NCBI GenBank assembly: GCA_003168375.1
Contig: PMSI01000001.1
Location: forward strand, 1,364,001-1,428,000
Length of the DNA: 64,000 nt
Direction of reading: 5' to 3'
From: Vulcanimicrobiota bacterium
GTDB lineage: Bacteria; Vulcanimicrobiota; Vulcanimicrobiia; Vulcanimicrobiales; Vulcanimicrobiaceae
Shown here: positions 32,608 to 45,588 of the stretch, in pieces
Layout of the letters: each line of letters starts with the position of its first letter
Numbering within the stretch: position 1 is the first letter of the stretch
Translations under genes and position numbers: made by a program
Notes under the pieces: model-generated
Told to the model about the DNA's origin: nothing
Database searches by the model: none
What the model saw: the letters and a program-made list of their open reading frames with translations, nothing else

Positions 32608-33807
32608 ATGTCCACGGTAGTCAATCCTGGCCTCGAAGGCGTCGTCGTTGGCGAAACGGTCCTGAGCAACGTCGAGGGGGAGGCGGGCCGGCTCACCTAT
32701 CGCGGCTACGACATCCACGACCTGGCCGAGAACGCCAGCTTCGAAGAGGTCATGCACCTGCTGCTGTTCGGGCAGCTCCCGACGCACCAGGAGCTGATCG
32801 ACCTGAACGCGCGCCTCACCGCGCGCCGGGCGCTCCCGTCCGGGCTCCTCGCGATGCTGCACGCGATCCCGCGCGACGCCTGGCCGATGGACGTGCTGCG
32901 CACTGGGGTCTCCGCGGTCTCGCAGTTCATCCCGCACCGCCCCGACGGTTCGCACGAGACGTCGGTCGAGACGGCGATCGACTTGATCGCGAAGTTCCCG
33001 ACGATCGTCGCCGCTTGGGACCGCATGCGCCGCGGCCTCGAACCGATCGCTCCCGATCCGAAGCTGAGCACCGCCGCGAACTTCCTCTTCATGCGCACCG
33101 GTGAAATGCCGATCCCGGAGGCCGAGCAGGCCCTCGACACCTATCTGGTGCTGCTGGCCGACCACTCGTTCAACGCATCGACGTTTTCGGCGCGCGTTAC
33201 CGCGTCGACCGGTGCCGACATCTACTGCGCGGTGACGTCCGCGGTCTCGACGCTTGCCGGCGATTTGCACGGCGGCGCGCCGAGCAAGGTCATGGTGCAC
33301 CTCGAGGAGATCGGCTTGCCGGAGAAGGCCGAGCCGTATGTCCGCGACCTGCTCGCGCGACACGAGAAGATCATGGGGATGGGGCACCGCGAGTACAAGA
33401 TCCGCGACCCGCGCGCCGCGCAGCTCGAGCAGATGGCGAAGAACCTGACCGAGAAATCACACACGAAGTGGTACCTGATCGCGCGCGCGCTCGAAGACGC
33501 GGCCGACAAGGTGCTGCGCGAGCAGAAGCCCGGCAAGCAGATCTACGCGAACGTCGAGTTCTACACCGCGCCGACGCTCTCGAGCCTCGGCATCCCGGCC
33601 GACGAGTTCACCTGCATGTTCGCCTGTGGGCGCATTGCGGGTTGGACCGCGCACGTGCTGGAGCAGTTCGCGCACAACCGGCTCATCCGGCCGCAGGCGA
33701 CGTACACCGGCCCCGCGGTGCACCCGTACGAGCCGATCGCCACGCGGCGCTCGACCGCCGCGCCCGGCACGAACGGCCACCCTCACCCTTCGACAGGCTC
33801 AGGGTGA
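32608..33807 (+). CDS. Citrate synthase / 2-methylcitrate synthase family protein
   Basis: Protein of 399 residues condensing acetyl- or propionyl-CoA with a 2-oxo acid. Two catalytic His segments are present: LADHSFNAST and GMGHREYKIRDPR. The position of the third catalytic residue reads NVEFYTA, with Glu where most family members have Asp (NVDFY). The C-terminal dozen residues end in a dispersed-repeat-encoded HPSTGSG, and the stop TGA lies inside the repeat. It is divergent from the Liv system 2 operon with a 150-bp gap; no strong ribosome site precedes ATG32608. It could be the main citrate synthase or a paralogue. Confidence 0.88.
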   Translation: MSTVVNPGLEGVVVGETVLSNVEGEAGRLTYRGYDIHDLAENASFEEVMHLLLFGQLPTHQELIDLNARLTARRALPSGLLAMLHAIPRDAWPMDVLRTGVSAVSQFIPHRPDGSHETSVETAIDLIAKFPTIVAAWDRMRRGLEPIAPDPKLSTAANFLFMRTGEMPIPEAEQALDTYLVLLADHSFNASTFSARVTASTGADIYCAVTSAVSTLAGDLHGGAPSKVMVHLEEIGLPEKAEPYVRDLLARHEKIMGMGHREYKIRDPRAAQLEQMAKNLTEKSHTKWYLIARALEDAADKVLREQKPGKQIYANVEFYTAPTLSSLGIPADEFTCMFACGRIAGWTAHVLEQFAHNRLIRPQATYTGPAVHPYEPIATRRSTAAPGTNGHPHPSTGSG

Positions 33808-33809
33808 CA
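33786..33809 (-). repeat. Dispersed 24-bp repeat, copy 5, at the citrate synthase/hisB junction
   Basis: On the plus strand CCCTTCGACAGGCTCAGG is followed by GTGACA. The sequence supplies the last codons and stop of the citrate synthase gene and, through GTG at 33804, the probable start codon of hisB. Confidence 0.85.
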
Positions 33810-34400
33810 TTGAAGCGTAGCGCGCACGTCACGCGGGAGACGCGCGAGACGCGGGTCGAGCTGCGGCTCGCGCTCGACGGCGGCCCCGTCTCGATCGCGA
33901 CCGGCGTCGATTTCTTCGACCACATGCTGGGCGCGCTCGCGACGCACGGCGGACTCGGTTTCGAGTTGACCGCACGCGGCGACGGGATGGATCACCACCA
34001 CGTGATCGAGGACGTCGGGATCACGCTCGGGCGCGCGATCGACGAATCGCTCGGCGACAAGCGCGGGATCGCGCGCTTCGGCTCGATCGCGATCCCGCTC
34101 GACGACGCGCTCGTGCAATGCGCGCTCGACCTCAGCGGACGGCCGTACTTGAACTACGACGTCCCGCTCTCGGTCCCGGCGCTCGGCGCGCTGCCGACCG
34201 AACTCGTCCCGCACTTCTTCCGCAGCGTGGTCGACCACGGTAAGTTCAACCTGCACCTGCTGCGTTGGGCCGGCACGAACAACCACCATCTGTGCGAGGC
34301 GGCGTTCAAGGCCTTCGCTCGCGCGTTTGCGCAGGCGAAGGTGCTCACCGCATCGAGTGAGGTCCCGTCGACGAAAGGCTCGCTGACCGAAGGGGGCTGA
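33804..34400 (+). CDS. hisB: Imidazoleglycerol-phosphate dehydratase
   Basis: Histidine biosynthesis step six (IGP to imidazole-acetol phosphate), 198 residues, monofunctional form. Manganese-site motifs are present: FFDHML, MDHHHVIEDVGITLG, VDHGKFNLHL and NNHHLCEAAFKAFARA. The GTG at 33804 overlaps the citrate synthase stop (GTGA) and lies inside a dispersed repeat; a TTG at 33810 is the alternative. No other his gene is adjacent; hisH and hisA are 11 kb away at 44974-46313. Confidence 0.93.
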   Translation: MTLKRSAHVTRETRETRVELRLALDGGPVSIATGVDFFDHMLGALATHGGLGFELTARGDGMDHHHVIEDVGITLGRAIDESLGDKRGIARFGSIAIPLDDALVQCALDLSGRPYLNYDVPLSVPALGALPTELVPHFFRSVVDHGKFNLHLLRWAGTNNHHLCEAAFKAFARAFAQAKVLTASSEVPSTKGSLTEGG

Positions 34401-34436
34401 GGGGCTTCGACGTGGCTAAGCCCCGGCTCGAGCCGG
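34401..34436. terminator. Hairpin and palindrome after hisB
   Basis: GGGGCTT (34401-34407) pairs with AAGCCCC (34418-34424) around a 10-nt loop, and it overlaps a perfect palindrome CCGGCTCGAGCCGG (34423-34436). There is no T run, so it may be a weak or bidirectional terminator between hisB and the convergent small gene. Confidence 0.4.
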
Positions 34437-34438
34437 CG

Positions 34439-34579
34439 TCAGACGCTGAACATCACGGCGATCACCACGCAGACGACGGCGATGCCGATCCCGGCGACCG
34501 AGAAGTCGTGTTCCGGCGGTAGGCTTCGCTCGCGTCTGCGATCCTTGCGCGAGCGCCGACGCCCCGCCACGTTCGTCAC
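34439..34579 (-). CDS. Small single-pass membrane protein, 46 residues
   Basis: A short gene between hisB and the TelA operon, on the minus strand. GTG34579 is preceded at 9 nt by a perfect AGGAGG (34589-34594), the strongest ribosome site in this region. The product starts MTNVAGRRRSRKDRRRERSL, a very basic N-terminus, and ends with one hydrophobic helix (about residues 27-46, FSVAGIGIAVVCVVIAVMF). This suggests a tail-anchored-like inner-membrane peptide with the basic part in the cytoplasm. No family recognised. Positions 34580-34751 upstream hold nothing else I can support. Confidence 0.6.
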   Translation of the reverse strand: MTNVAGRRRSRKDRRRERSLPPEHDFSVAGIGIAVVCVVIAVMFSV

Positions 34580-34751
34580 CCCCACTGCCCTCCTAGCTCC
34601 GGGTCGGTTCCGTTACGAGGCTCTTTCCGTGATGAGCGAGGGGCCTAACGCTTTTTGCAACGGAGCGCTGCGTGAGGTTCGACCTGTCCTGTTTCGCCCG
34701 ATCGGCGCGCTCGCCGGAGGGGCCGGGCGCCTGCGACCGGTAGAGCCGAGC

Positions 34752-35909
34752 ATGCCGGTTCGGCGACTGCTTGGTCCGCTTGCCTTGATCGTCCTCGTCG
34801 TCGCGGTCGGTTTCGCCATCGTGCTCTCGACGCGCGAGGCCGGCCGGCAGCGGGCGGCCCGCGCCGTCGTCGCGGTCCACGGCCTCGTCGGTTCCGAAAA
34901 AGAAGCGTACCTGCGCGACCCGCGCGTGCTCGACGAGCTGCGCAAGAACGGCTTCGATCTCCGCATCGAGACCGCCGGTTCGCGCGAGATGGCCAAGCGT
35001 ACCGATCTCTCGACCTATGATTTCGCGTTCCCGGCCGGAGCGCCGGCCGGCCAGCGGCTGAAGGTGATCGTCAAGGCCAAGGACGTTTATACGCCGTTCT
35101 TCACGCCGATGGCCGTCGCGTCGTGGAAGACCATCGCGAACATCATGATCGCGAACGGCATCGTGAAGATCGACGGCGGACACTACATGATCGTCGACAT
35201 GCCGAAGCTGCTCGCGGCAGAGAACGAGGGAAAGCGCTGGCACGATTTCAAGGCCTCGAGCGGCTACGACGTCAACAAGTCGGTCCTGGTCACCACCACC
35301 GACCCGCGCAAGTCGAACTCCGGTGTGATGTACGCGGCGCTGGCGTCGTACGTCCTCAACGGAAACCAGGTCGTGCAGAGCGACGCGCAGGTCCAGCGCG
35401 TGCAGACCCAGATCAACGGTTTGTTCCTGCGCCAAGGTTTTCAGGAGTCGTCGTCGGCCGGCCCGTTCGAGGACTACGTCGAGATCGGGATGGGGAAGGC
35501 GCCGCTGGTCATGATCTACGAGTCGCAGTTCATCGAGTACTTGCTCGCGCACGCCAACGACCGCGGCGGCCAAAAGGTGCTGCTCTATCCGCGTCCGACG
35601 ATCTACACGAAGCACACCTTCGTACCGATCGACGAGGCGGGCGACCGTCTCGGGCAATTGCTGCAGACGGATCCGGTGCTGCAGCACTTGGCCGTGGAGC
35701 ACGGCTTTCGCATCCAGGACTCGGCGTACTCGAGCGACTTCTGGAAGCGCAACGGGATCTCGGTCCCCGAACAGCTGATCGACGTCGTCGACCCGCCATC
35801 GTTCGAGTTCCTCGAAGATCTCATCACCGGCGTCGAGCGCGCCTACACCTCGAATCAGGAGGTTCCCCGAGATGGATCCAACGACAGCCGCCCCGGCCGC
35901 AACAGTTGA
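34752..35909 (+). CDS. Membrane-anchored substrate-binding-like protein of the TelA/VWA operon
   Basis: Protein of 385 residues with an N-terminal hydrophobic anchor or signal (LLGPLALIVLVVAVGFAIVL, residues 5-24). The remaining extracytoplasmic part resembles type II periplasmic binding proteins (bacterial solute-binding family 11-like): AVVAVHGLVGSEKEAYLRD, SSGYDVNKSVLVTTTDPRKSNSGVMYAALASYVL, and PLVMIYESQFIEYLL. Ligand unknown. It is first in an operon with TelA, a second binding protein/VWA fusion, XpaC-like and STAS-like genes. Its 3' end overlaps telA by 38 bp and contains the telA ribosome site. Confidence 0.75.
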   Translation: MPVRRLLGPLALIVLVVAVGFAIVLSTREAGRQRAARAVVAVHGLVGSEKEAYLRDPRVLDELRKNGFDLRIETAGSREMAKRTDLSTYDFAFPAGAPAGQRLKVIVKAKDVYTPFFTPMAVASWKTIANIMIANGIVKIDGGHYMIVDMPKLLAAENEGKRWHDFKASSGYDVNKSVLVTTTDPRKSNSGVMYAALASYVLNGNQVVQSDAQVQRVQTQINGLFLRQGFQESSSAGPFEDYVEIGMGKAPLVMIYESQFIEYLLAHANDRGGQKVLLYPRPTIYTKHTFVPIDEAGDRLGQLLQTDPVLQHLAVEHGFRIQDSAYSSDFWKRNGISVPEQLIDVVDPPSFEFLEDLITGVERAYTSNQEVPRDGSNDSRPGRNS

Positions 35910-37047
35910 ACCGCTGACCCCACCCGCCCCGGTCGCTGCGGTGACGCCGCAGACCGCGCTCGCGATGGTGCAGCTCACGCCGGATCAAACGGCGAAGCTC
36001 GACGCCCAAGTCGACGGGTTCGCGAAGGATTTGCTCGGGCTGCCCGTCCACTCGGACGACTTCAAGAACCGCGTCAATGCGATCTCCGCGATGGGAAATG
36101 AGGAGATCGCGCATTCGGCCGGACTCGCGAACCGGCTGCTCGACCGGCCCGCGCGGGCGATGAACGGCGGAATCTTCGACAGCGGCTCCGACGTGGCCAA
36201 ACAGCTCGTGTCGCTGCGCGATACCGTCGAACGGCTCGATCCCGTCTCGCACGGCGATCTGTTCGCGCCGCGCAAGCTGCTCGGCTTCATCCCGTTCGGT
36301 TCCGCGATGCTCGACTATTTCCGGTCCTATGAGTCTTCGCAGACGCATCTCAACGCGATCATCAACGGTCTGTACGCCTCCCGCGATCAGCTGCTGCACG
36401 ACAACGCCGACATCGAGCAAGAGCGCGAGAACCAATGGACCCTGATGGGGCAGCTCGAACAGTTCGCCTACCTCGCGAAGAAGGTTGCCGACTCGTTGGA
36501 CGGACAGATCGCGAGCGTCGCGGCGACCGACCCGGAGCGCGCCAAGATCCTCAAGGAAGACGTGCTGTTTTACGCGCGTCAGAAGCAGGTGGACATCGCG
36601 ACCCAGCAGGCCGTCAACGTGCAGGGGTACCTCGCGCTCGACCTGATCCGGAAGAACAACGAAGAGCTGATCAAGGGCGTCGACCGCGCGACGACGACGA
36701 CGGTCGCCGCGCTGCGCACCGCCGTGATCGTGGCCCAAGCGCTGACCAACCAGAAGCTGGTGCTCGATCAGATCGACGCGCTGAACGCGACGACGAACAA
36801 GGTGATCGCGGACACCGCGACCATGCTCAAGCAGAACACCGAGCGCGTCTTCGAGCAGGCGTCGAGTTCGACGGTCAGCATCGACACGCTCAAGCAGGCT
36901 TTCGCCGACACGAAGGCCGCGATCGACGGCGTGAGCGAGTACAAGGAAAAGGCCCTGGTCTCGTTCCAGCAGACCGTGCAAGCCCTGCAGCCTGCGATCG
37001 ACGACGCGCAAAAGTACATCGCGGCGCACCGCGACACCGGAGCGTAG
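35872..37047 (+). CDS. TelA/KlaA family protein (toxic anion resistance family)
   Basis: Mostly helical cytoplasmic protein of 391 residues. Family features include a variable N-terminus, FIPFGSAMLDYFRSYESSQTHLNAIINGL, QWTLMGQLEQFAYLAKKVADSLD, and the C-terminal TATMLKQNTERVFEQASS plus IDTLKQAFADTKAAID. TelA homologues are linked to tellurite and other envelope stresses and are often next to XpaC, as here two genes later. A perfect AGGAGG lies 9 nt before ATG35872. Biochemical function unknown. Confidence 0.85.
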   Translation: MDPTTAAPAATVEPLTPPAPVAAVTPQTALAMVQLTPDQTAKLDAQVDGFAKDLLGLPVHSDDFKNRVNAISAMGNEEIAHSAGLANRLLDRPARAMNGGIFDSGSDVAKQLVSLRDTVERLDPVSHGDLFAPRKLLGFIPFGSAMLDYFRSYESSQTHLNAIINGLYASRDQLLHDNADIEQERENQWTLMGQLEQFAYLAKKVADSLDGQIASVAATDPERAKILKEDVLFYARQKQVDIATQQAVNVQGYLALDLIRKNNEELIKGVDRATTTTVAALRTAVIVAQALTNQKLVLDQIDALNATTNKVIADTATMLKQNTERVFEQASSSTVSIDTLKQAFADTKAAIDGVSEYKEKALVSFQQTVQALQPAIDDAQKYIAAHRDTGA

Positions 37048-37052
37048 CGGCG

Positions 37053-38627
37053 GTGCGCCCGCGGATCCTCGCTCCTGCCCTGGCGGCGTTGCTGCTCGTC
37101 GCGGCGGCGGCGTGCGGCGGACCGTCGGCGCCGAAGGAGACACTCGACGTCTTCGCGGGCTCCGAGCTGAAAGATGTCGAGCCGATCCTGGCCGATGCGG
37201 AGCGGGCGACGGGCGTGCACGTCGCGATGACGTACACCGGGACGATCTCCGGGATCGACCGGCTCGCCGGCGGCGAACGGCACGATGCCGCCTGGTTTGC
37301 GCAGGACAAATACCTCGCGCTCAGCAGCGCCGGCAAATCAGTGCGCACCCGCACGAGGATCATGCTCTCGCCGGTGATCCTCGGCGTCAAGCACTCGGTC
37401 GCCGAGCGGCTGGGCTGGAGCGGCGGAAAGCGCGTCTCGTGGCGCGACGTGCAGGGCGCGATCGCGGCGGGCCACTTTCGCTACGCGATGACGAACCCGA
37501 GCACGTCGAACTCGGGCTTCTCCGCGGTGCTGAGCATCTCGACCGCGCTCGCCGGCACCGGCGATGCGCTGCGGCCCTCCGAGGTGAACCGGGCTGCGAT
37601 CGCGGCGTTCTACCGCGGCCAAAAGGTGGTCTCGGGCAGCAGCGGCTGGCTCAGCGACGCGTTCCTCGCCGCGCAGGATCGCGTCGACGGGATCATCACC
37701 TATGAAGCCAGCATCGCGGCGCTGGACGCGAACCCCGCGCTGCGCGAGAAGCTCGACCGCGTCTATCCGTCCGACGGTCTCGTCACCTCGGACTACCCGC
37801 TGGATCTGCTCGACGAGTCGAAGCACGACGCGTACGACCGGCTCGTCGCGTATCTCAAGAGTCCCGAGGTGCAGAAGCGCATCGCCGAGACGACGTACCG
37901 CCGGCCGATCGACCCCTCCGCCGCGACGCAGCAATATCCGGCGGTCCTGCAAGAGACGGCGTTCCCGGCCTCCGCCGCCGCGGTTCAGCAGCTGCTGCTG
38001 CGATTTCTCAACCAGGATCGCGTTCCGGCGCACTCGTTCTACGTGCTCGACAAGACCGGGTCGATGGACAATGAGGACGGCACGGGGAAGAGCCGCATTC
38101 AGCGCGTGCGCGAAGCGCTCGACGTCCTGGCCGGTGGGGACGACTCCTTGACCGGACAGTTCGCGCGATTCGTCGACCGCGAGCGGATCACGATCATTAC
38201 CTTCAGTCAGGCCCCCGAGATCGATCGAACGTTTCAGATGACGCGGGCGAACGATCCGGGGGTGTTCGCGGCGGTGCGCGCGCTCGGCGCCTCCCTCGCC
38301 CCCGACGGCAACACGGCGATCTATACCGCGCTCGAAACGGCGCTGCAGGAAGCGGTGCGCGACGAGACCGACGATGCCGGTCGGTACGCGACGATCGTAC
38401 TGATGACCGACGGTGAGAACAATCGCGGCGACGACTTCGCGCGTTTCCAGCGCAAGTGGAACGCGTTGTCGCAGTACGGGCGGCACATCCACATCTTCCC
38501 GATCTTCATCGGCGAGGCGAATCCCAAGGAGCTGCAGCAGATCGCCGACCTGACCGGCGGACGCGCGTTCGACGCGCGTTCGCAGTCGCTGGCCGAGATA
38601 TTCAAGGAGATCCGGGGCTACCAGTGA
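37053..38627 (+). CDS. Lipoprotein: substrate-binding domain fused to a von Willebrand A domain
   Basis: Protein of 524 residues. The signal ILAPALAALLLVAAAACGG has a lipobox ending at Cys20, so it is probably a lipoprotein. Residues about 30-310 form a binding-protein domain (LDVFAGSELKDVEPIL, NPSTSNSGFSAVLS). Residues about 328-520 form a VWA domain with a metal site DKTGSM near 333 (Thr in place of the usual first Ser), GNTAIYTALETAL and TDGENN. The fold pair suggests ligand binding coupled to a metal-dependent interaction at the membrane surface. GTG37053 starts 5 bp after the telA stop; its stop overlaps the next gene (GTGA). Confidence 0.82.
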   Translation: MRPRILAPALAALLLVAAAACGGPSAPKETLDVFAGSELKDVEPILADAERATGVHVAMTYTGTISGIDRLAGGERHDAAWFAQDKYLALSSAGKSVRTRTRIMLSPVILGVKHSVAERLGWSGGKRVSWRDVQGAIAAGHFRYAMTNPSTSNSGFSAVLSISTALAGTGDALRPSEVNRAAIAAFYRGQKVVSGSSGWLSDAFLAAQDRVDGIITYEASIAALDANPALREKLDRVYPSDGLVTSDYPLDLLDESKHDAYDRLVAYLKSPEVQKRIAETTYRRPIDPSAATQQYPAVLQETAFPASAAAVQQLLLRFLNQDRVPAHSFYVLDKTGSMDNEDGTGKSRIQRVREALDVLAGGDDSLTGQFARFVDRERITIITFSQAPEIDRTFQMTRANDPGVFAAVRALGASLAPDGNTAIYTALETALQEAVRDETDDAGRYATIVLMTDGENNRGDDFARFQRKWNALSQYGRHIHIFPIFIGEANPKELQQIADLTGGRAFDARSQSLAEIFKEIRGYQ

Positions 38628-39235
38628 GGCTCCCCCTCTACGTCTACAGCAATCGGAACATCGCGGGGAGCGCTCTGGGCCTGCTCGCGCTCGGCGCGTA
38701 CTTCGCCGGCGCGATCCACGAGCTGTGGTACGTGATCGTCGTCGGGAGCTACGGGATCGGCGCGCTGCTCGGGCGCGACGGCGGCGAGCTCGAGACGCAC
38801 TTGAACGACGAGATGAGCGTGCAGGATGCCGTCGACGGCGTCGGCCGGCTCGCCGCCGAAGCCCAGAAGCGCTTCCCGCCCGAGATCGCCGCGCTGGTCG
38901 CCGAGATCGCGACCGACGTCGCGACGGTTCTTCCGCGGCTCGCCGCGCACGGCGTCGCCGACGCTACCTTCGCCGACGTGCGCTCGACTGCGATGAGCTA
39001 TCTGCCGGATACCCTCAACGCGTTCCTCGCCGTGCCGGCGGCCTACCGGAATACCGCACCGATCGCCGACGGCAAGACAGCGCGCCAGATCGTCGTCGCG
39101 CAGCTCACCGTGCTCGCGGCGAAGATGAAGGAGATCGCCGAGAACGTGACCGCCGACGACGCGCAAGCGCTGCTCGCGAACGGGCGTTTTCTCAAGGAGC
39201 GTTTCGCGGCGGCCCCGATGTTCAAACCGGCATGA
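38624..39235 (+). CDS. XpaC-like membrane protein
   Basis: Protein of 203 residues with two N-terminal membrane segments (about 11-28 and 31-47) and a helical cytoplasmic remainder. The C-terminal pattern SYLPDTLNAFLAVP, then VVAQLTVLAAKMKEIAEN and LANGRFLKERF, resembles XpaC (5-bromo-4-chloroindolyl phosphate hydrolysis family), which neighbours TelA homologues in other bacteria. Start GTG38624 overlaps the previous stop, and the stop overlaps the next start (ATGA). Confidence 0.72.
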   Translation: MRLPLYVYSNRNIAGSALGLLALGAYFAGAIHELWYVIVVGSYGIGALLGRDGGELETHLNDEMSVQDAVDGVGRLAAEAQKRFPPEIAALVAEIATDVATVLPRLAAHGVADATFADVRSTAMSYLPDTLNAFLAVPAAYRNTAPIADGKTARQIVVAQLTVLAAKMKEIAENVTADDAQALLANGRFLKERFAAAPMFKPA

Positions 39236-39555
39236 CGGAGCCCGCGATCATCACGTTCGCCGGCGATCTCGAGCTGGCGCGTTATCCGGCGGCGCACGGC
39301 ATCCTCGAGGCCGCAAAGCTCTCGAAGGGGCGCTCCCTCGTGCTCGACCTCTCGGCCGCCGATCGCGTCGACCCACTGATCGCCGGTGAGCTCGTCCTGT
39401 TTATCCGCCGTTCGCTGCGTTACGGCGCCCTGGTGGCGGTCGTCCCGCCGCACCGCCCCAACGAATGGCTGACCCATGCCGGCTCGATTCGCGACGCGCA
39501 TTTCCGCCAAACGCGCGAAGAGGCGCTCGCGCTGGTCGGCGGCGCGGCTCCGTAG
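39232..39555 (+). CDS. STAS-like (anti-sigma factor antagonist-type) protein without the phosphorylated Ser
   Basis: Protein of 107 residues with the strand-helix order of STAS domains: AIITFAGDLELARYPAAHGIL, SLVLDLSAADRVDPLIAGELV, and LVAVVPPHRPNEWLTHAG. In SpoIIAA-type antagonists the centre reads DSSGL, with a Ser phosphorylated by a kinase; here it reads VDPLIAGEL, so that Ser is missing. It is the last gene of the TelA operon by a 4-bp overlap, and 3 bp from the convergent MEDS gene. Confidence 0.65.
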   Translation: MTEPAIITFAGDLELARYPAAHGILEAAKLSKGRSLVLDLSAADRVDPLIAGELVLFIRRSLRYGALVAVVPPHRPNEWLTHAGSIRDAHFRQTREEALALVGGAAP

Positions 39556-39558
39556 GCG

Positions 39559-40350
39559 TCAGGCGGCGGCGCGGTAGTAACGCCGCGCGCGCCCGATGAT
39601 CTCGTCCGCGTACGCCGGCAGGTAGGCGCGCAGCCAAAGGATCATCGCTTCGGCGTTCGGGAGCGCCGGCCACGCCGGGCGCCCGTGGCGATCGCTGAGC
39701 TCACGCACGCCGTCCGCGCGCGGTCCCAACACCTCGTCCATCGCACGGTCGACCGCGCGCTGCAGCGCGGCGTCTCCGGCCGGCAGGAGGTGGGTGTGGT
39801 TCGCCAGCAGCGCGTCGACGTCGTCGGGCCGAAACCCCTCGCCGAAGACGTCGATCGGGTAGGCGCAGAACAGCTTGAAGCCGCCTTCCGCGAGCAGGGC
39901 GTTCCAGAGCTCCTCGAGACGGATCGCGGCGGCGTAGCGCTCGGCCGACCAAAGGACGCCGACCATCTCGCCGTAGGCGCGAATCCCCCGGCTTCCCGTG
40001 CGCGCGCCAAGGTCGCGCATCAGCGAACCGACGACCTCGGTGAACCGCTGCGGATTGGGCTGTCCGTCGACCATCAGGCGGTCGAGTGTCTCGTGCGCGT
40101 CGAGCAGCACGAGCTGCCCGTCGCAGAGCGCCGCCTCGGGGGCGAAACCGGCCTTGGCAACCGCCGCGGGGACACCCGCCCGATGACCCTCCGTTGCGAT
40201 GACGAGCGCGACCTCGCCGCGCACCAAGCCTTCGGCGAGGTAGCGTCCGATGTTGGCGAGCAGGACGGCATCGTCGGTGGCGTCATGCAGCTGCACGAAG
40301 TGCGATTGCGGGCGCGCTTCTCCGAGCAGCTCCCGCGTGACATCGGACAT
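39559..40350 (-). CDS. MEDS-domain (DcmR-like) sensor protein
   Basis: Protein of 263 residues. The core FVQLHDATDDAVLLANIGRYLAEGL, then GEVALVIATEGHR, AYGEMVGVLWSAERYAAAIRLEELWN and FKLFCAYPIDVFG, matches MEDS domains found in DcmR and in anti-sigma/kinase regulators. The last about 60 residues are a helical tail. It lies 82 bp downstream of the SpoIIE-type gene on the same strand, which is a common pairing, and likely supplies a signal to that protein. Confidence 0.8.
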   Translation of the reverse strand: MSDVTRELLGEARPQSHFVQLHDATDDAVLLANIGRYLAEGLVRGEVALVIATEGHRAGVPAAVAKAGFAPEAALCDGQLVLLDAHETLDRLMVDGQPNPQRFTEVVGSLMRDLGARTGSRGIRAYGEMVGVLWSAERYAAAIRLEELWNALLAEGGFKLFCAYPIDVFGEGFRPDDVDALLANHTHLLPAGDAALQRAVDRAMDEVLGPRADGVRELSDRHGRPAWPALPNAEAMILWLRAYLPAYADEIIGRARRYYRAAA

Positions 40351-40432
40351 ATCGTGAACGCCTATACCCAGCCCGGGAGAGCCTTCCTACCTGACAGCGG
40401 CTCGTTCGACGGCGCCGGCGGACGCCGCGCGC

Positions 40433-42496
40433 TCATAGCACCGCGTCCCGGCTGAGGCTCGCGGCGCCGCGGTAGTGCGTCTGCCCGCGCAGGACGGCGC
40501 GCGCATGGCTGCCGCCGCCGCGGCGCCGCTCGACCGTCAGCTCTTCGGCGAACGCCGTGACGAGGAACAGACCGCGGCCCCGCTCGGAGAGGAGGTCGGC
40601 CGGCAGCCGCGGCCGGAACTCGAAACCGCGGCCGTCGTCGACGACGTGCAGCACGGCGGCTTCGCCCGAGACGTCGAGGATCACCTCGATCGGTCCGGGT
40701 GCGTATCGCACGACGTTTCCGAGCAGCTCGCCGAAGACGAGCTCGGCGCTGAACACGTCCGCTTCGCCGAGCCCCGCTGCGTGCAGCTGCACGATGCAGT
40801 CGCGGCGCGCACGCTGCGCCGCGTCGGAATCGGTGACCCCGAAGCGCCACCGTGAGGCGCGGCGTGGACCGTCGATCGTGGTGAGCGGCCGGTCGAACGA
40901 GACGGCGAGGATCGCGACGTCGTCGTGCGGCGGAAGGCCGCCCGAGACGCCGGCGTAGATCGCGTGCGCGATCTCCTGGTCGGTCGTGGCGAGCGCGGCG
41001 GCGACGACCGACTCGCCGAGCAGCGCGTCGCGATCGAACTCGGTGAGCCCGTCGGTGTAGCACAGCAGGACCGAGCCCGGCTCGATGTCGACCGTCGTCC
41101 CCGCGCCGTCGGCGTGCCCGCGGATTCCGAGCGGCAGATCCGGCGCGAAGAGCGGACGCACCGTGCGGTCCGGGCCGCGCAGCAGCGGCGGCGGGTGTCC
41201 CGCCGACGCGAACGTGAGCTCGAAGCAGACGGGATCGAGCACGCCGACGAACGCGGTGACGAACGGCGCACGGCCCATCGCGCGAACGATGCGGTCGACC
41301 GCGTTCAGTACCGCGACCGGCTCGGGGTTGATGAGCGCGGCGGTGCGGATGCTCTGCCGCACGCTCGCCATCGCGACCGCCGCGTCGAGCCCCTTGCCTG
41401 CGACGTCACCGACCGAGAGCACCAGGCGCCCGTCGGGGAGCCGGAACGCATCGTACCAGTCACCGCCGACGGTCGCCTCCAGCATCGCGGCTTGATAGAT
41501 CGCGTCGAACGCGATTCCCGGGATGTCGGGGAGCGACGCGCTCAGCGCCGCCTCCTGAAACGTCGTCGCGACGCGCCGTTCGCGCTCGTACGCCGTTGCG
41601 TTGCCGATCGCCGGCGCGATGCGGCGCCCGAGCTCCTCGAAGAACGGCACGTCGGCGCGCGTATATGCGCGGCCGCTGCTGCGCAGGACGGCGTTCAGCG
41701 TCCCGACGATCCGTCCGCCGGAGATGAGCGGTACGATCAGCGCCGAGTCGTACCCGATCCGTGCGAACGCCTCTCCGAACGGCGCTTCGATGCTTTCACG
41801 ACCGAACTCTTCGGTCAGCGCCTCGTAGACGACGGGCCTCCCGGTGCGCAGCACCTCCGCCGTCCCGCTGCGCGCAGCCAAGTTCGCATACGGCTGCCCC
41901 CGCAGCTCGTCGAGCGCGGCGCGCAGCGCTTCATCGCGGTGGTACGCGGCCGAGAGACGAACCTCGCCGCGATCGTCGATGAGGTTCACGGTCGCCCAGT
42001 CGGCGAACTCAGGTACGATGCGCCGCGTGATGACGCGCAGCGTCTGATCGAGAGAGAGCGCGCCCGCGAGCTCGGCACCGAGCTGCGAGAAGAACCGTTC
42101 GCGAAGGCGCGCGCCGCGCGCACCGTCGATGTCGGTATTCGTTCCGAACCAGCGCACGACGCGGCCGTCGTCGTTGCGCAACGGCGTCGCGCGGGTGAGG
42201 AACCAGCGGAAGCGCCGGTCCGCGCCGCGCAGCCGGAACTCCATCTCGAACGGTTCGCCGGTCGCGATCGAGCGCGCCCACGCGCGCATGACCTCGGGCA
42301 GATCCTCGGCGTGGTGAACCGCTTGCCACCCCCAGCCTTCCGCTTCGTCCCGCGTCTGCCCGGTGTAGTCGTACCAGCGCGCGTTGTACCAATCGATCCA
42401 GCCGTCGGCCAGCGCCGACCACATCATCTGGGGCACGGCGTCCGCGATGACGCGGAACGACGCCGCCTCGGTCCAGGCGAAGGGCTGGACGTCCAT
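40433..42496 (-). CDS. PAS-GAF-SpoIIE phosphatase with C-terminal histidine-kinase-like ATPase domain
   Basis: Signalling protein of 687 residues. PAS domain about 12-130 (WYNARWYDYTGQTRDEAEGWG), GAF about 150-300, PP2C/SpoIIE phosphatase about 315-520 (VGGDWYDAFRLPDGRLVLSVGDVAGKG; LLCYTDGLTEFDRD; HDDVAILAV), and an HATPase domain like RsbW/SpoIIAB about 550-680 (FGELLGNVVRYAP; VDDGRGFE; RGRGLFLV). Such proteins both phosphorylate and dephosphorylate partner-switching components. The STAS-like protein encoded 0.9 kb away on the other strand is a possible partner. ATG42496 is used; an adjacent TTG is ignored. It starts 10 bp after the sorbosone-dehydrogenase-like stop. Confidence 0.9.
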   Translation of the reverse strand: MDVQPFAWTEAASFRVIADAVPQMMWSALADGWIDWYNARWYDYTGQTRDEAEGWGWQAVHHAEDLPEVMRAWARSIATGEPFEMEFRLRGADRRFRWFLTRATPLRNDDGRVVRWFGTNTDIDGARGARLRERFFSQLGAELAGALSLDQTLRVITRRIVPEFADWATVNLIDDRGEVRLSAAYHRDEALRAALDELRGQPYANLAARSGTAEVLRTGRPVVYEALTEEFGRESIEAPFGEAFARIGYDSALIVPLISGGRIVGTLNAVLRSSGRAYTRADVPFFEELGRRIAPAIGNATAYERERRVATTFQEAALSASLPDIPGIAFDAIYQAAMLEATVGGDWYDAFRLPDGRLVLSVGDVAGKGLDAAVAMASVRQSIRTAALINPEPVAVLNAVDRIVRAMGRAPFVTAFVGVLDPVCFELTFASAGHPPPLLRGPDRTVRPLFAPDLPLGIRGHADGAGTTVDIEPGSVLLCYTDGLTEFDRDALLGESVVAAALATTDQEIAHAIYAGVSGGLPPHDDVAILAVSFDRPLTTIDGPRRASRWRFGVTDSDAAQRARRDCIVQLHAAGLGEADVFSAELVFGELLGNVVRYAPGPIEVILDVSGEAAVLHVVDDGRGFEFRPRLPADLLSERGRGLFLVTAFAEELTVERRRGGGSHARAVLRGQTHYRGAASLSRDAVL

Positions 42497-42506
42497 CAAC
42501 CGCGCA

Positions 42507-43661
42507 TTAGAGCCGCACCGGCCTCACACGGTAGACGGCACCGTTCGCGTCGTCACTCACGAAGAGCGAACCGTCGTTTCCGACCGCCACGCCGCTGGGC
42601 CGGCACGCGCGCGCACCGTCGGCGCTTTGACAGCCGCCGCCGAACTCGGTCCACTGCGCATCGGGATTCGACCAGTCGACGGCCTTCGCGGGTTCGCCGT
42701 TCCTGAACGGGACGAAGGCGACGCGCGGCGGGACCGGCGGCTGGTGCCACGAGCCGTGCAAGGTGACGAACGCTCCGCCGCGATACCTCGCCGGAAACGC
42801 GTGCGCGCCTTTGAGGTCGAGCGGATAGAACGCCGCGCCGATCGGCGTGTCGTACGCCGGGAACACGACTTTCGGCACGACGACGTTCGCGCAGCTCGCG
42901 CCCCCGATCGGTTTGCGGTCGTCGTAGCACTTCATCCAGCCGTAGTCCGGCGTGCCGGCGTGGGACGTGACGTCGTCGAAGATCTCGTACGGGTGGCCGT
43001 GCTCCAGATCGTCGCGCCCCGCGACGCCGGCCCAGAGCGCGCCGGTCTCCGGTTTCACCGCGAGCGCGATGGCGTTGCGAATGTCGACTGCGCGCGCGCG
43101 CACGTTCTTGCCGTCCGGCGTCATCGCTTGAATCGTCGCGCGCGTCGGATCGCTTTCGTCGCACGCGTTGCACGACGAGCCGACGCTCGCGTACAGCGTT
43201 CCGTTGGAGAGCGCGATCGTCGTCGTCGAGTGGCCGCGGCCGCCGCCGGTGCGGACGCTCGCGATCTTTTGAGGACCGCTGCGCGCTTCGCGGTCGCCGG
43301 TCCGGTATGCGATCTTGTACACTCCGCCCTGGCCGCCCGCGAATACCGCGTCGCCCGCCACCAGCACGCCCGCGACCGGGCGGTCGTCGACCGACGCGAA
43401 CCGGCGCGGTTCGCCGGGATTGCCCTCGGCGTCCGGAACGACGTAGATCGCGTTCCCCGACGTGCCGACGAACAGATCGCCGTTCGGCGCAACGGAGAGT
43501 TCGCGCGCCCAGGTGATGGTCGCGATGCGCTCGGCGACGAAGCCGGTTGGAACGGTGAGGGCGACCGCCCCGGCCGCCTGGCCGGTGAGCGGTGCGGCAG
43601 CCGGGGCCGCGGCGACGAGGACGCACGCCGCAGCGAAGGCTAGGAAACGGTGCGAGACCAT
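42507..43661 (-). CDS. PQQ-type sugar (sorbosone/aldose) dehydrogenase family protein, exported
   Basis: Protein of 384 residues with a signal peptide (FLAFAAACVLVAAAPAAA). The repeated beta-propeller pattern includes FVAERIATITWARELSVAPNGDLFVGTSG, DYGWMKCY, FYPLDLKGAHAFPARYRGGAFVTLHGSWH and the final GVAVGNDGSLFVSDDANGAVYRV. Family members oxidise aldoses in the periplasm with PQQ, though many homologues are untested. A close paralogue follows upstream at 43693-44967, so this is a local duplication. Confidence 0.82.
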   Translation of the reverse strand: MVSHRFLAFAAACVLVAAAPAAAPLTGQAAGAVALTVPTGFVAERIATITWARELSVAPNGDLFVGTSGNAIYVVPDAEGNPGEPRRFASVDDRPVAGVLVAGDAVFAGGQGGVYKIAYRTGDREARSGPQKIASVRTGGGRGHSTTTIALSNGTLYASVGSSCNACDESDPTRATIQAMTPDGKNVRARAVDIRNAIALAVKPETGALWAGVAGRDDLEHGHPYEIFDDVTSHAGTPDYGWMKCYDDRKPIGGASCANVVVPKVVFPAYDTPIGAAFYPLDLKGAHAFPARYRGGAFVTLHGSWHQPPVPPRVAFVPFRNGEPAKAVDWSNPDAQWTEFGGGCQSADGARACRPSGVAVGNDGSLFVSDDANGAVYRVRPVRL

Positions 43662-43692
43662 CTCAGCCCTGGTTCCCCCGCGCGCGCGTTCT

Positions 43693-44967
43693 CTACCGGC
43701 GGTCAGCCCCCGAGGTGGCCGTCCCGGCCGGCCGGATCCGGTAGACCGCGCCGGCCGTATCGTCGGCGACGAACAGGCTCCCTTGCGCGCCGACCGTTAC
43801 CCCGGTCGTCCGTCCGATGCGGGCCGTCCCGTTCTGGAATCCGGTGAAGAAGTCGTTCCACTGCGCGGTCGGATCGCTCCAGTTGACCGCGCGCGCCGGT
43901 GCGCCGCCGGCGAACGGCACGAACGCGACGTGCGGCGCATCGACCGGGTTCCCGTTCGCGGCCGTGTGCCACGACCCGTGCAGGCTCACGAACAGACCGC
44001 CGCTCCAGGCGGACGAAAACGCGTACGGGCCGGGTTGCGCGGCGGGGTAGAACGCGGCGCCGATGATCGTCGAGTAGGCCGGAAACGCCACCGCCGGGAC
44101 GACGACGTTCGCGCAGTTCGCGCCGCTCGTGTACGCGACGCGGTTCTCCTCACAGTCCGGCCAGCCGTAGTCGGCCGGCGCGCCGTGCGCCGAGACGGGG
44201 TCCATGAACTCGTACGGATGGCCTGGCGCCAGACTGTCCTGACCGGCGCCGCCGGCCCAGACGGTGCCGGTCGACGGATCGGTCGCGAGCGCGATCGCGT
44301 TGCGCCAGCGCTTCGCCTGCGTCGTCATCCCGAGCCCGTCGATCCCCATCCGCTGCACGGTCGCGCGGGTCGGATCGGTCTCGACGCATGCGTTGCACGA
44401 CGAGCCGACACCGACGTACAGCGTCGAGCCGCTGACCGCTGCCGAGCTCGTGGTGTGGGTGTCGCCGTCGGTACCCGCGATCGAACCCGTCCGCACCGAC
44501 GCGATCGGCGTCACCGTCCCGCTGTGCGCGCCAGCGGCATACGCTATCTTGTAGACGCCGAGCTTCGTCGTCACGAAGACGAAGCCGGCGCCGTAGGCGA
44601 CACCCTGCGCCGGCCCCTCCGGCAGCGTCGCAAACGTCAACGGAGCGTCGGCGGCGCCGGGGCTTTCGGCGTTCGGGACGATGACCACCGTCTGGCCGAG
44701 CGTCCCGACGATCAGGTCGCCATTGGGCAGCGCCGCCAGCTCTCGCGCGCCGCCGACCTGCGCGATGACGCTCACGATGAAGCCCGAAGGGACGTGCAGG
44801 CTCGCGTTCGCCGACGGCGCGCTCGGTCCGGTGAAGGGCGTGGGGCTCGGCGTGGGGCTCGGCGTCGCAGTCGGCAGCGGCGCCGCGGCCGGCTGCACGC
44901 CGCTCCCGCCGCCGCTGCACGCGGTCAGCGCGCAGGCAAGCAACGCCGCCCCGGCGAGCGAACGCAG
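43693..44967 (-). CDS. Lipoprotein paralogue of the PQQ-type sugar dehydrogenase
   Basis: Same propeller family as the neighbour at 42507-43661 (shared VGSSCNAC, GHPYEFMD, DYGWPDCEENR, GSWH, SLFVADDTAGAVYRIRP). The N-terminus RSLAGAALLACALTACSGGG is a textbook lipoprotein signal with the lipobox Cys, followed by a Pro/Thr-rich linker. No ATG, GTG or TTG precedes this signal at a sensible distance. I use the CTG at 44967, six bases from the divergent hisH start. The only in-frame ATG (45234) would run 261 bp into hisH. Start uncertain, gene itself likely real. Confidence 0.7.
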   Translation of the reverse strand: MRSLAGAALLACALTACSGGGSGVQPAAAPLPTATPSPTPSPTPFTGPSAPSANASLHVPSGFIVSVIAQVGGARELAALPNGDLIVGTLGQTVVIVPNAESPGAADAPLTFATLPEGPAQGVAYGAGFVFVTTKLGVYKIAYAAGAHSGTVTPIASVRTGSIAGTDGDTHTTSSAAVSGSTLYVGVGSSCNACVETDPTRATVQRMGIDGLGMTTQAKRWRNAIALATDPSTGTVWAGGAGQDSLAPGHPYEFMDPVSAHGAPADYGWPDCEENRVAYTSGANCANVVVPAVAFPAYSTIIGAAFYPAAQPGPYAFSSAWSGGLFVSLHGSWHTAANGNPVDAPHVAFVPFAGGAPARAVNWSDPTAQWNDFFTGFQNGTARIGRTTGVTVGAQGSLFVADDTAGAVYRIRPAGTATSGADRR

Positions 44968-44973
44968 AAGCCG

Positions 44974-45588
44974 ATGACGGTTCCGAAGATCGCGGTAATC
45001 GACTACGGCGGCGGCAACGTCGGCTCGCTGATCGCCGCGCTCGAGCGGCGCGGGGCCGCGTTTACGCTGACCGAAGACCCGCGCGACGTCGACCGGGCGC
45101 AGGCGGCGATTCTGCCCGGCGACGGAGCGTTCGGGGCGACGATCGACGCCATTCGCGAGCGGAAACTCGATGGTGCGATCGACCGGGCGATCGCCGCGGG
45201 GCGACCCTTTCTCGGGATCTGCGTCGGTATGCAAGTGTTGTTCGACTCCAGCGACGAGTACGGCGGCGCCCTCGGCCTCGGTATCTTACCCGGCGAGGTA
45301 CGCCGCTTCACCGGCGCTCCCCGCGTCCCGCACATGGGCTGGAACGATCTCGTGATCGAGCGCACGCACCCGTTCGTCGACGGCATCGCGAGCGGAGCGT
45401 GGGCATACTTTCTCCACTCGTACCGCGTCACCGGAGCCGACTCGGTCGTCGCGTCGTGCGAGTACGGCGAGCGCTTTGCCGCGATCGTCGCCCGCGACAA
45501 CGTGATGGCCACGCAGTTCCACCCGGAGAAGAGCCGCTCCACCGGAGCCCGTCTGCTCGACAACTTCCTCCGCATCGCCGCCGCGTGA
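44974..45588 (+). CDS. hisH: Imidazole glycerol phosphate synthase, glutaminase subunit
   Basis: Class I glutamine amidotransferase of 204 residues supplying ammonia to HisF. Nucleophile Cys83 is in GICVGMQVLF, the oxyanion region is ILPGDGAFG and the catalytic His-Glu pair is in HPEKS near the C-terminus; PHMGWND is a typical HisH segment. ATG44974 lies back to back with the lipoprotein gene. Its TGA overlaps the hisA GTG. hisF is not in the window. Confidence 0.95.
   Translation: MTVPKIAVIDYGGGNVGSLIAALERRGAAFTLTEDPRDVDRAQAAILPGDGAFGATIDAIRERKLDGAIDRAIAAGRPFLGICVGMQVLFDSSDEYGGALGLGILPGEVRRFTGAPRVPHMGWNDLVIERTHPFVDGIASGAWAYFLHSYRVTGADSVVASCEYGERFAAIVARDNVMATQFHPEKSRSTGARLLDNFLRIAAA

Follow-up and report, generated by a model that had tools for sequence, protein, structure and literature searches.

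In many bacterial annotations TelA is labelled "toxic anion resistance", with no known mechanism behind the label. In a 64,000-nucleotide stretch of DNA from a Vulcanimicrobiota bacterium (contig PMSI01000001.1, hereafter the window), a telA gene lies between the genes for two solute-binding proteins (SBPs): SBP1, and SBP-VWA, in which a binding domain is joined to a VWA domain. A small membrane protein, here called gene 4, and a STAS-like protein are encoded downstream. The original prediction described all five as one operon and tentatively as one envelope device. Five plus-strand open reading frames (ORFs) are indeed present at 34752-39555 in near-continuous array, overlapping or abutting: the TelA start overlaps the SBP1 end by 38 bp, gene 4 overlaps SBP-VWA by 4 bp, and the STAS-like ORF overlaps gene 4 by a further 4 bp. 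Comparative analysis resolves this array into a conserved four-gene cassette and an adjoining gene that is not part of it. The features are as follows.

34752..35909, plus strand: SBP1, with an N-terminal membrane anchor (residues 6-24) and an extracytoplasmic type-II solute-binding domain.
35872..37047, plus strand: TelA (PF05816), predicted cytosolic, with no transmembrane segment; Pfam expectation value (E) 2.8e-78.
37053..38627, plus strand: SBP-VWA lipoprotein (gene 3), with a GTG start and the lipobox LVAAAAC.
37146..37892, plus strand: SBP domain of gene 3 (SBP_bac_11; residues 32-280), with the pocket signature GSE / G(T/S) / SN(S/T)G / SSG / Y(E).
38043..38603, plus strand: VWA domain of gene 3 (residues 331-517), with a metal ion-dependent adhesion site (MIDAS) formed by D333-x-T/S-x-S337, T421 and D453.
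38624..39235, plus strand: gene 4 membrane protein, with an N-terminal two-helix hairpin and a cytosolic helical domain; by sequence not a PF10112 XpaC.
38906..39208, plus strand: putative TelA-partner domain of gene 4, cytosolic (residues about 95-195), with a signature common to the soluble protein of a gene4-YbjQ-TelA module.
39232..39555, plus strand: STAS-like gene, adjoining the cassette without being a member; part of a flanking STAS-MEDS-phosphatase block.

Relatives of SBP-VWA were sought in one genome per species, which yielded 277 stretches; the best 80 loci, those closest to the window, were analysed, and the figures for gene order describe these 80 rather than all 277. SBP1, TelA, SBP-VWA and gene 4 are all present, in this order, at 65 of the 80, with median intergenic gaps of 25, 50 and 12 bp. 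Four further loci are broken by contig ends, and there too TelA adjoins SBP-VWA. Judged by record titles, the loci span seven phyla: Eremiobacterota, Dormibacterota, Chloroflexota, Deinococcota, Acidobacteriota, Actinomycetota, and Pseudomonadota. (One record titled Rhodospirillales, L017 or JANYGA010000078.1, is apparently the same contig as G090:C217 of the window's own family, with the same length of 21532 and the same match coordinates; the title is probably wrong.) A four-gene order kept at 65 of 80 loci in seven phyla is far beyond chance. Moreover, across 68 loci the four proteins agree in their pairwise distances, with correlations of 0.87-0.95. SBP1, TelA, SBP-VWA, and gene 4 are a conserved, co-inherited unit, and the binding and VWA genes are linked to telA at most of the related loci as they are in the window.

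Beyond the four genes, no neighbour is kept across phyla around the cassette; in 88 loci, neither an ABC permease nor an ATPase accompanies it as a conserved gene. Searches of plasmid proteins find SBP1 adjoining SBP-VWA in Sphaerotilus, Nonomuraea, Variovorax, and Deinococcus. One apparent TelA-VWA fusion, at locus L064, was rejected as the product of a frame shift caused by a stretch of unknown bases. Separately, a Streptomyces sp. NBC_01483 plasmid (L007:6764-7993) carries an SBP1 relative without the cassette, beside genes for a small membrane protein and, by eye, a CASTOR/POLLUX-type ion channel-like protein.

TelA scores 263.8 bits against a Pfam cut-off of 30 over residues 65-384. Gene 3 matches both SBP_bac_11 (62.1 bits against a cut-off of 25; E 8.6e-17) and VWA (E 1e-11), and a lipobox-like motif occurs in 76 of 89 SBP-VWA relatives. 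The MIDAS is complete: D333, S337, T421, and D453 are invariant in 38 of 38 sequences, and the S335 position is a threonine in the window. A structure model of the fusion has a predicted local distance difference test (pLDDT) score of 90.5. Its SBP half matches AfuA, FbpA, ModA, and 6lkg (titled a two-component signalling protein); the VWA half is closest to extracellular adaptors, namely ITIH and the LapA VWA domain. The description of gene 3 as a lipoprotein uniting a binding domain with a metal-binding VWA domain is supported.

For SBP1, Pfam gives no significant match for the window protein. Among SBP1 relatives the Pfam SBP match is weak (6 of 34, best E 0.0019). Profile comparison by hhalign nevertheless pairs SBP1 with the SBP domain of gene 3 at 96.3% probability (E 1.9e-9), and the two share the motifs GSE, G(S/T), SNS, and YE; by these sequence criteria SBP1 is a distant homologue of the SBP domain of SBP-VWA. 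The AlphaFold2 (AF2) model of SBP1 (pLDDT 90.2) is a type-II binding protein whose closest solved folds are sulfate-binding SubI (E 9.6e-9), MctA, and ModA. The N-terminal membrane anchor occurs in 79 of 81 SBP1 relatives, and the description of this gene as a membrane-anchored binding protein holds. As modelled, both proteins resemble binding proteins for oxyanions, phospho-sugars or ferric iron.

Gene 4 had been called XpaC-like. Pfam finds no significant match for gene 4 in the window. None of 45 gene 4 relatives matches the PF10112 (XpaC / Halogen_Hydrol) profile, gene 4 proteins gave no match to it even when E values up to 10 were allowed, and none of 40 cassette genomes or records holds any PF10112 member; by Pfam profile comparison, gene 4 does not belong to XpaC. 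Weak PDB sequence matches of gene 4, and likewise of TelA, were rejected as coiled-coil chance matches. What gene 4 shares with XpaC is a telA neighbourhood and N-terminal membrane helices (a hydrophobic hairpin in the family consensus), so that it may work like XpaC without being one.

The analogy with a TelA and membrane-partner pair is reasonable because the cytosolic domain of gene 4 recurs beside another TelA. This domain, with the signature YLPxTL..Y...P....T/A..L..QL.LL......NGRFL..RF, is found without membrane helices in a soluble protein that adjoins TelA and a double YbjQ (PF01906) protein. The window's own genome holds this gene4-YbjQ-TelA module (L152:2930-5973; G000:C4, about 1898.4-1901.5 kb), as do relatives L153-L155, although in L153 the genes stand in a different order. 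Gene 4-like matches lie near TelA on the same contig in eight other genomes of the phylum. Altogether, nine of 16 non-cassette matches to the domain adjoin TelA, and the remaining seven map to different contigs. Its recurrence beside another TelA, in a separate module, makes this domain probably a TelA-partner domain. That it occurs in soluble proteins lacking a signal peptide favours a position on the cytosolic side, and in the cassette the helix hairpin would fix it to the membrane.

The STAS-like gene fares differently. Its ATGA overlap with gene 4 means that it may be co-transcribed with the cassette in the window, and the original prediction read it as an internal regulator of a five-gene device. 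However, it occurs in no other cassette among the loci compared. The nearest congener is G127, whose DNA is about 90% identical to that of the window. Window segments 33763-34681 and 39193-43823 are collinear in it, and about 1.4 kb stands in the cassette's place, holding an unrelated ORF of 537 aa that by eye resembles nitronate monooxygenase. That congener keeps the genes for STAS, MEDS, the PAS-GAF-SpoIIE-HATPase protein, and a GSDH-like protein intact. Another congener (G123) has the STAS homologue at the same site and its cassette on a different contig. The gene thus stays with MEDS and a PP2C-type phosphatase where the cassette is absent, and as a fifth cassette member it is rejected. 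A five-gene device with STAS inside it, for which only the overlap speaks, is refuted as a conserved feature and can be given very little credence. The identification as STAS itself survives by way of the G123 homologue, which reaches 23.0 bits against a Pfam cut-off of 22.6, where the window ORF gives E=0.1 only.

STAS, MEDS, and the phosphatase look like an ordinary partner-switching block. In the window this likely unit occupies 39232-42499, with STAS on the plus strand and MEDS and PAS-GAF-SpoIIE-HATPase on the minus strand. By eye, the STAS proteins of the window and of L131 have no Ser/Thr at the usual phospho-acceptor position (VDPLIAGEL). Beyond the block, 42507-45234 encodes two adjacent secreted GSDH/NHL-like proteins about 52% identical to each other; most congeners have two or three such genes in tandem.

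Within the phylum the cassette is sparse. Among 149 genomes, SBP-VWA occurs in seven (one a relic), SBP1 in six, and TelA in 21; all six with SBP1 also hold SBP-VWA and TelA. Two congeners preserve remnants at the same hisB-GSDH site: in G119 (L100:8500-9950) SBP-VWA and gene 4 are broken and SBP1 and TelA are gone, and in G124 (L133:3346-4635) TelA stands alone with an SBP1 fragment. The few carriers and these remnants together suggest an accessory cassette, laterally gained and repeatedly lost.

What might such a cassette do? The reading put forward here, held at about an even chance, is that it constitutes a self-contained, laterally spreading trans-envelope device for responding to stress. 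The reading is built on the anatomy, gene order, co-inheritance and topological features of the cassette, the MIDAS, the pocket signature common to both SBPs, and the reappearance of the gene 4 domain beside another TelA. From these we infer a ligand class, physical contacts, a direction of signalling, and a phenotype. On the outside, SBP1, on its single-helix tether, and SBP-VWA, as a lipoprotein, would share a ligand class: probably oxyanions, anionic complexes of a metal or phosphorylated compounds. Through its MIDAS, the VWA domain would supply a metal-dependent contact between proteins. On the inside, the partner domain of gene 4, held at the membrane by its hairpin, would recruit TelA. 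Once ligand capture or damage to the envelope is sensed on the outer side, the signal would be passed to TelA and gene 4, which may then act on the membrane or cell wall under envelope or toxic-anion stress. An inward signal of this kind would fit the predicted topology.

Several observations pull the other way. At about ten of the 80 loci, SBP1 and SBP-VWA occur without TelA between them, so the outer part may function independently of TelA or rely on one encoded elsewhere. TelA also has the lowest distance correlation of the four proteins and is the least congruent of them (68 loci), and its phylogeny is partly unresolved. The extracytoplasmic loop of gene 4 is a few residues long, and the route for a signal from outside is not obvious. 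The ligand class derives only from fold likeness at 10-18% identity.

A broader proposal, for now a tentative one toward which the balance does not tip, is that the cassette represents an undescribed kind of trans-envelope machine. Paired tethered SBPs, one of them with an integrin-like MIDAS domain, would act as a switch on a TelA scaffold, by way of a TelA-partner domain that has no name as yet. On this view a single cytosolic core (TelA with the partner domain) would be common to TelA modules, and their sensors would be interchangeable: SBP/VWA, YbjQ or SBP-OmpA/VWA.

Three other explanations compete with the trans-envelope device. The first is scavenging or sequestration: beyond the membrane, the two SBPs simply capture a toxic anion or metal complex, and TelA and gene 4 repair membrane damage independently, with no signal between them. 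Tethered SBPs (lipobox; N-terminal helix), the lack of an ABC permease or ATPase in the conserved set, and the existence of a TelA without SBPs in the gene4-YbjQ-TelA module all agree with this. A VWA domain with an invariant MIDAS, however, is more in keeping with a regulated contact between proteins than with binding alone, and a single gene order in seven phyla suggests a complex; scavenging is judged unlikely, if the strongest of the three. The second explanation has the cassette assembling or checking a surface or envelope structure, with the VWA-SBP protein as chaperone or adaptor, TelA and gene 4 as a PspA-like scaffold, and the SBP fold re-used for a peptide, lipid or glycan. The resemblance of the VWA domain to the extracellular adaptors ITIH and LapA would suit such a role, as would the description of TelA in sub-membrane structures (PMC7824862). 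Yet the pocket signature is kept in both SBPs, as expected for small-ligand binding, and this explanation seems somewhat more doubtful still.

In the third explanation, TelA and gene 4 control the activity of a transporter whose ABC permease is borrowed from an unlinked locus. SBPs normally feed ABC importers, and a TelA cluster on a Vibrio plasmid, considered below, does hold an ABC permease and ATPase. Against this stand the 88 loci in which neither component is conserved with the cassette, the membrane anchoring of SBP1, and the fusion of the other SBP to VWA; a borrowed permease appears improbable.

For TelA, the cassette has practical value. The four-gene order across seven phyla names its likely co-workers, the two binding proteins give a testable ligand class, and the partner domain also marks a separate TelA-YbjQ module. 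The mechanism of TelA is thereby open to direct binding, pull-down, and deletion assays.

None of the five window proteins matches the PADLOC profiles for known anti-phage defence. Searches of the literature found no description of the four-gene set, which seems undescribed, although the main TelA review (doi 10.1039/c2mb25239b) may already list the neighbourhood. Individual parts do have known counterparts. The cassette SBPs have the fold and probable ligand class of type-II SBPs (SubI, ModA, FbpA, AfuA, and 6lkg); unlike these, they are not tied to an ABC transporter, one is fused to VWA, and identity is 10-18%.

XpaC is a small protein with membrane helices. The XpaC-TelA(YaaN) pairs of Bacillota (for example lmo1966-lmo1967 of Listeria), as recounted in PMC12791056, likewise place TelA beside a small partner, and their TelA is linked there to tolerance of cell-wall antibiotics and tellurite. 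Disruption of lmo1967, the Listeria TelA, increases sensitivity to nisin and tellurite (Collins et al. 2010, as cited in PMC12791056), and work on lactococcal small RNAs links a tel locus to tellurite (PMC13109727). The cassette differs from these pairs: gene 4 lacks PF10112, two SBPs and a VWA domain are added, and TelA lies between the SBPs.

The Ter/TelA stress systems (Anantharaman, Iyer and Aravind 2012, as presented in PMC7824862) also combine TelA with VWA proteins and a membrane component, and comparative work makes TelA a part of their sub-membrane structures (PMC7824862). The cassette, in contrast, contains no TerB, TerC, or TerD, and its VWA domain belongs to an extracytoplasmic lipoprotein fused to an SBP. 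TerD is absent from the window's own genome and from 14 of 18 cassette genomes (present in four), and the cassette is not counted among the Ter systems.

A further counterpart is an independent and apparently undescribed TelA cluster on Vibrio plasmid NZ_AP019800 (L103:101-8737). It encodes NMT1/OmpA fusions, a VWA lipoprotein, an SBP-OmpA protein and a membrane protein, together with TelA, an SBP, and both a permease and an ATPase of the ABC type; homologues of its SBP-OmpA occur in five further Vibrio plasmid records. Like the cassette, it combines TelA and a membrane protein with VWA and with extracytoplasmic SBPs. Homology to the cassette, however, is confined to TelA and the VWA domain: none was found between its membrane protein and gene 4, or between SBP-OmpA and SBP-VWA, and its SBPs are NMT1-like, OmpA-fused, and accompanied by the ABC components. 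That parts of the same kinds come together in two different assemblies adds weight to the view that TelA acts in concert with extracytoplasmic binding and VWA modules.

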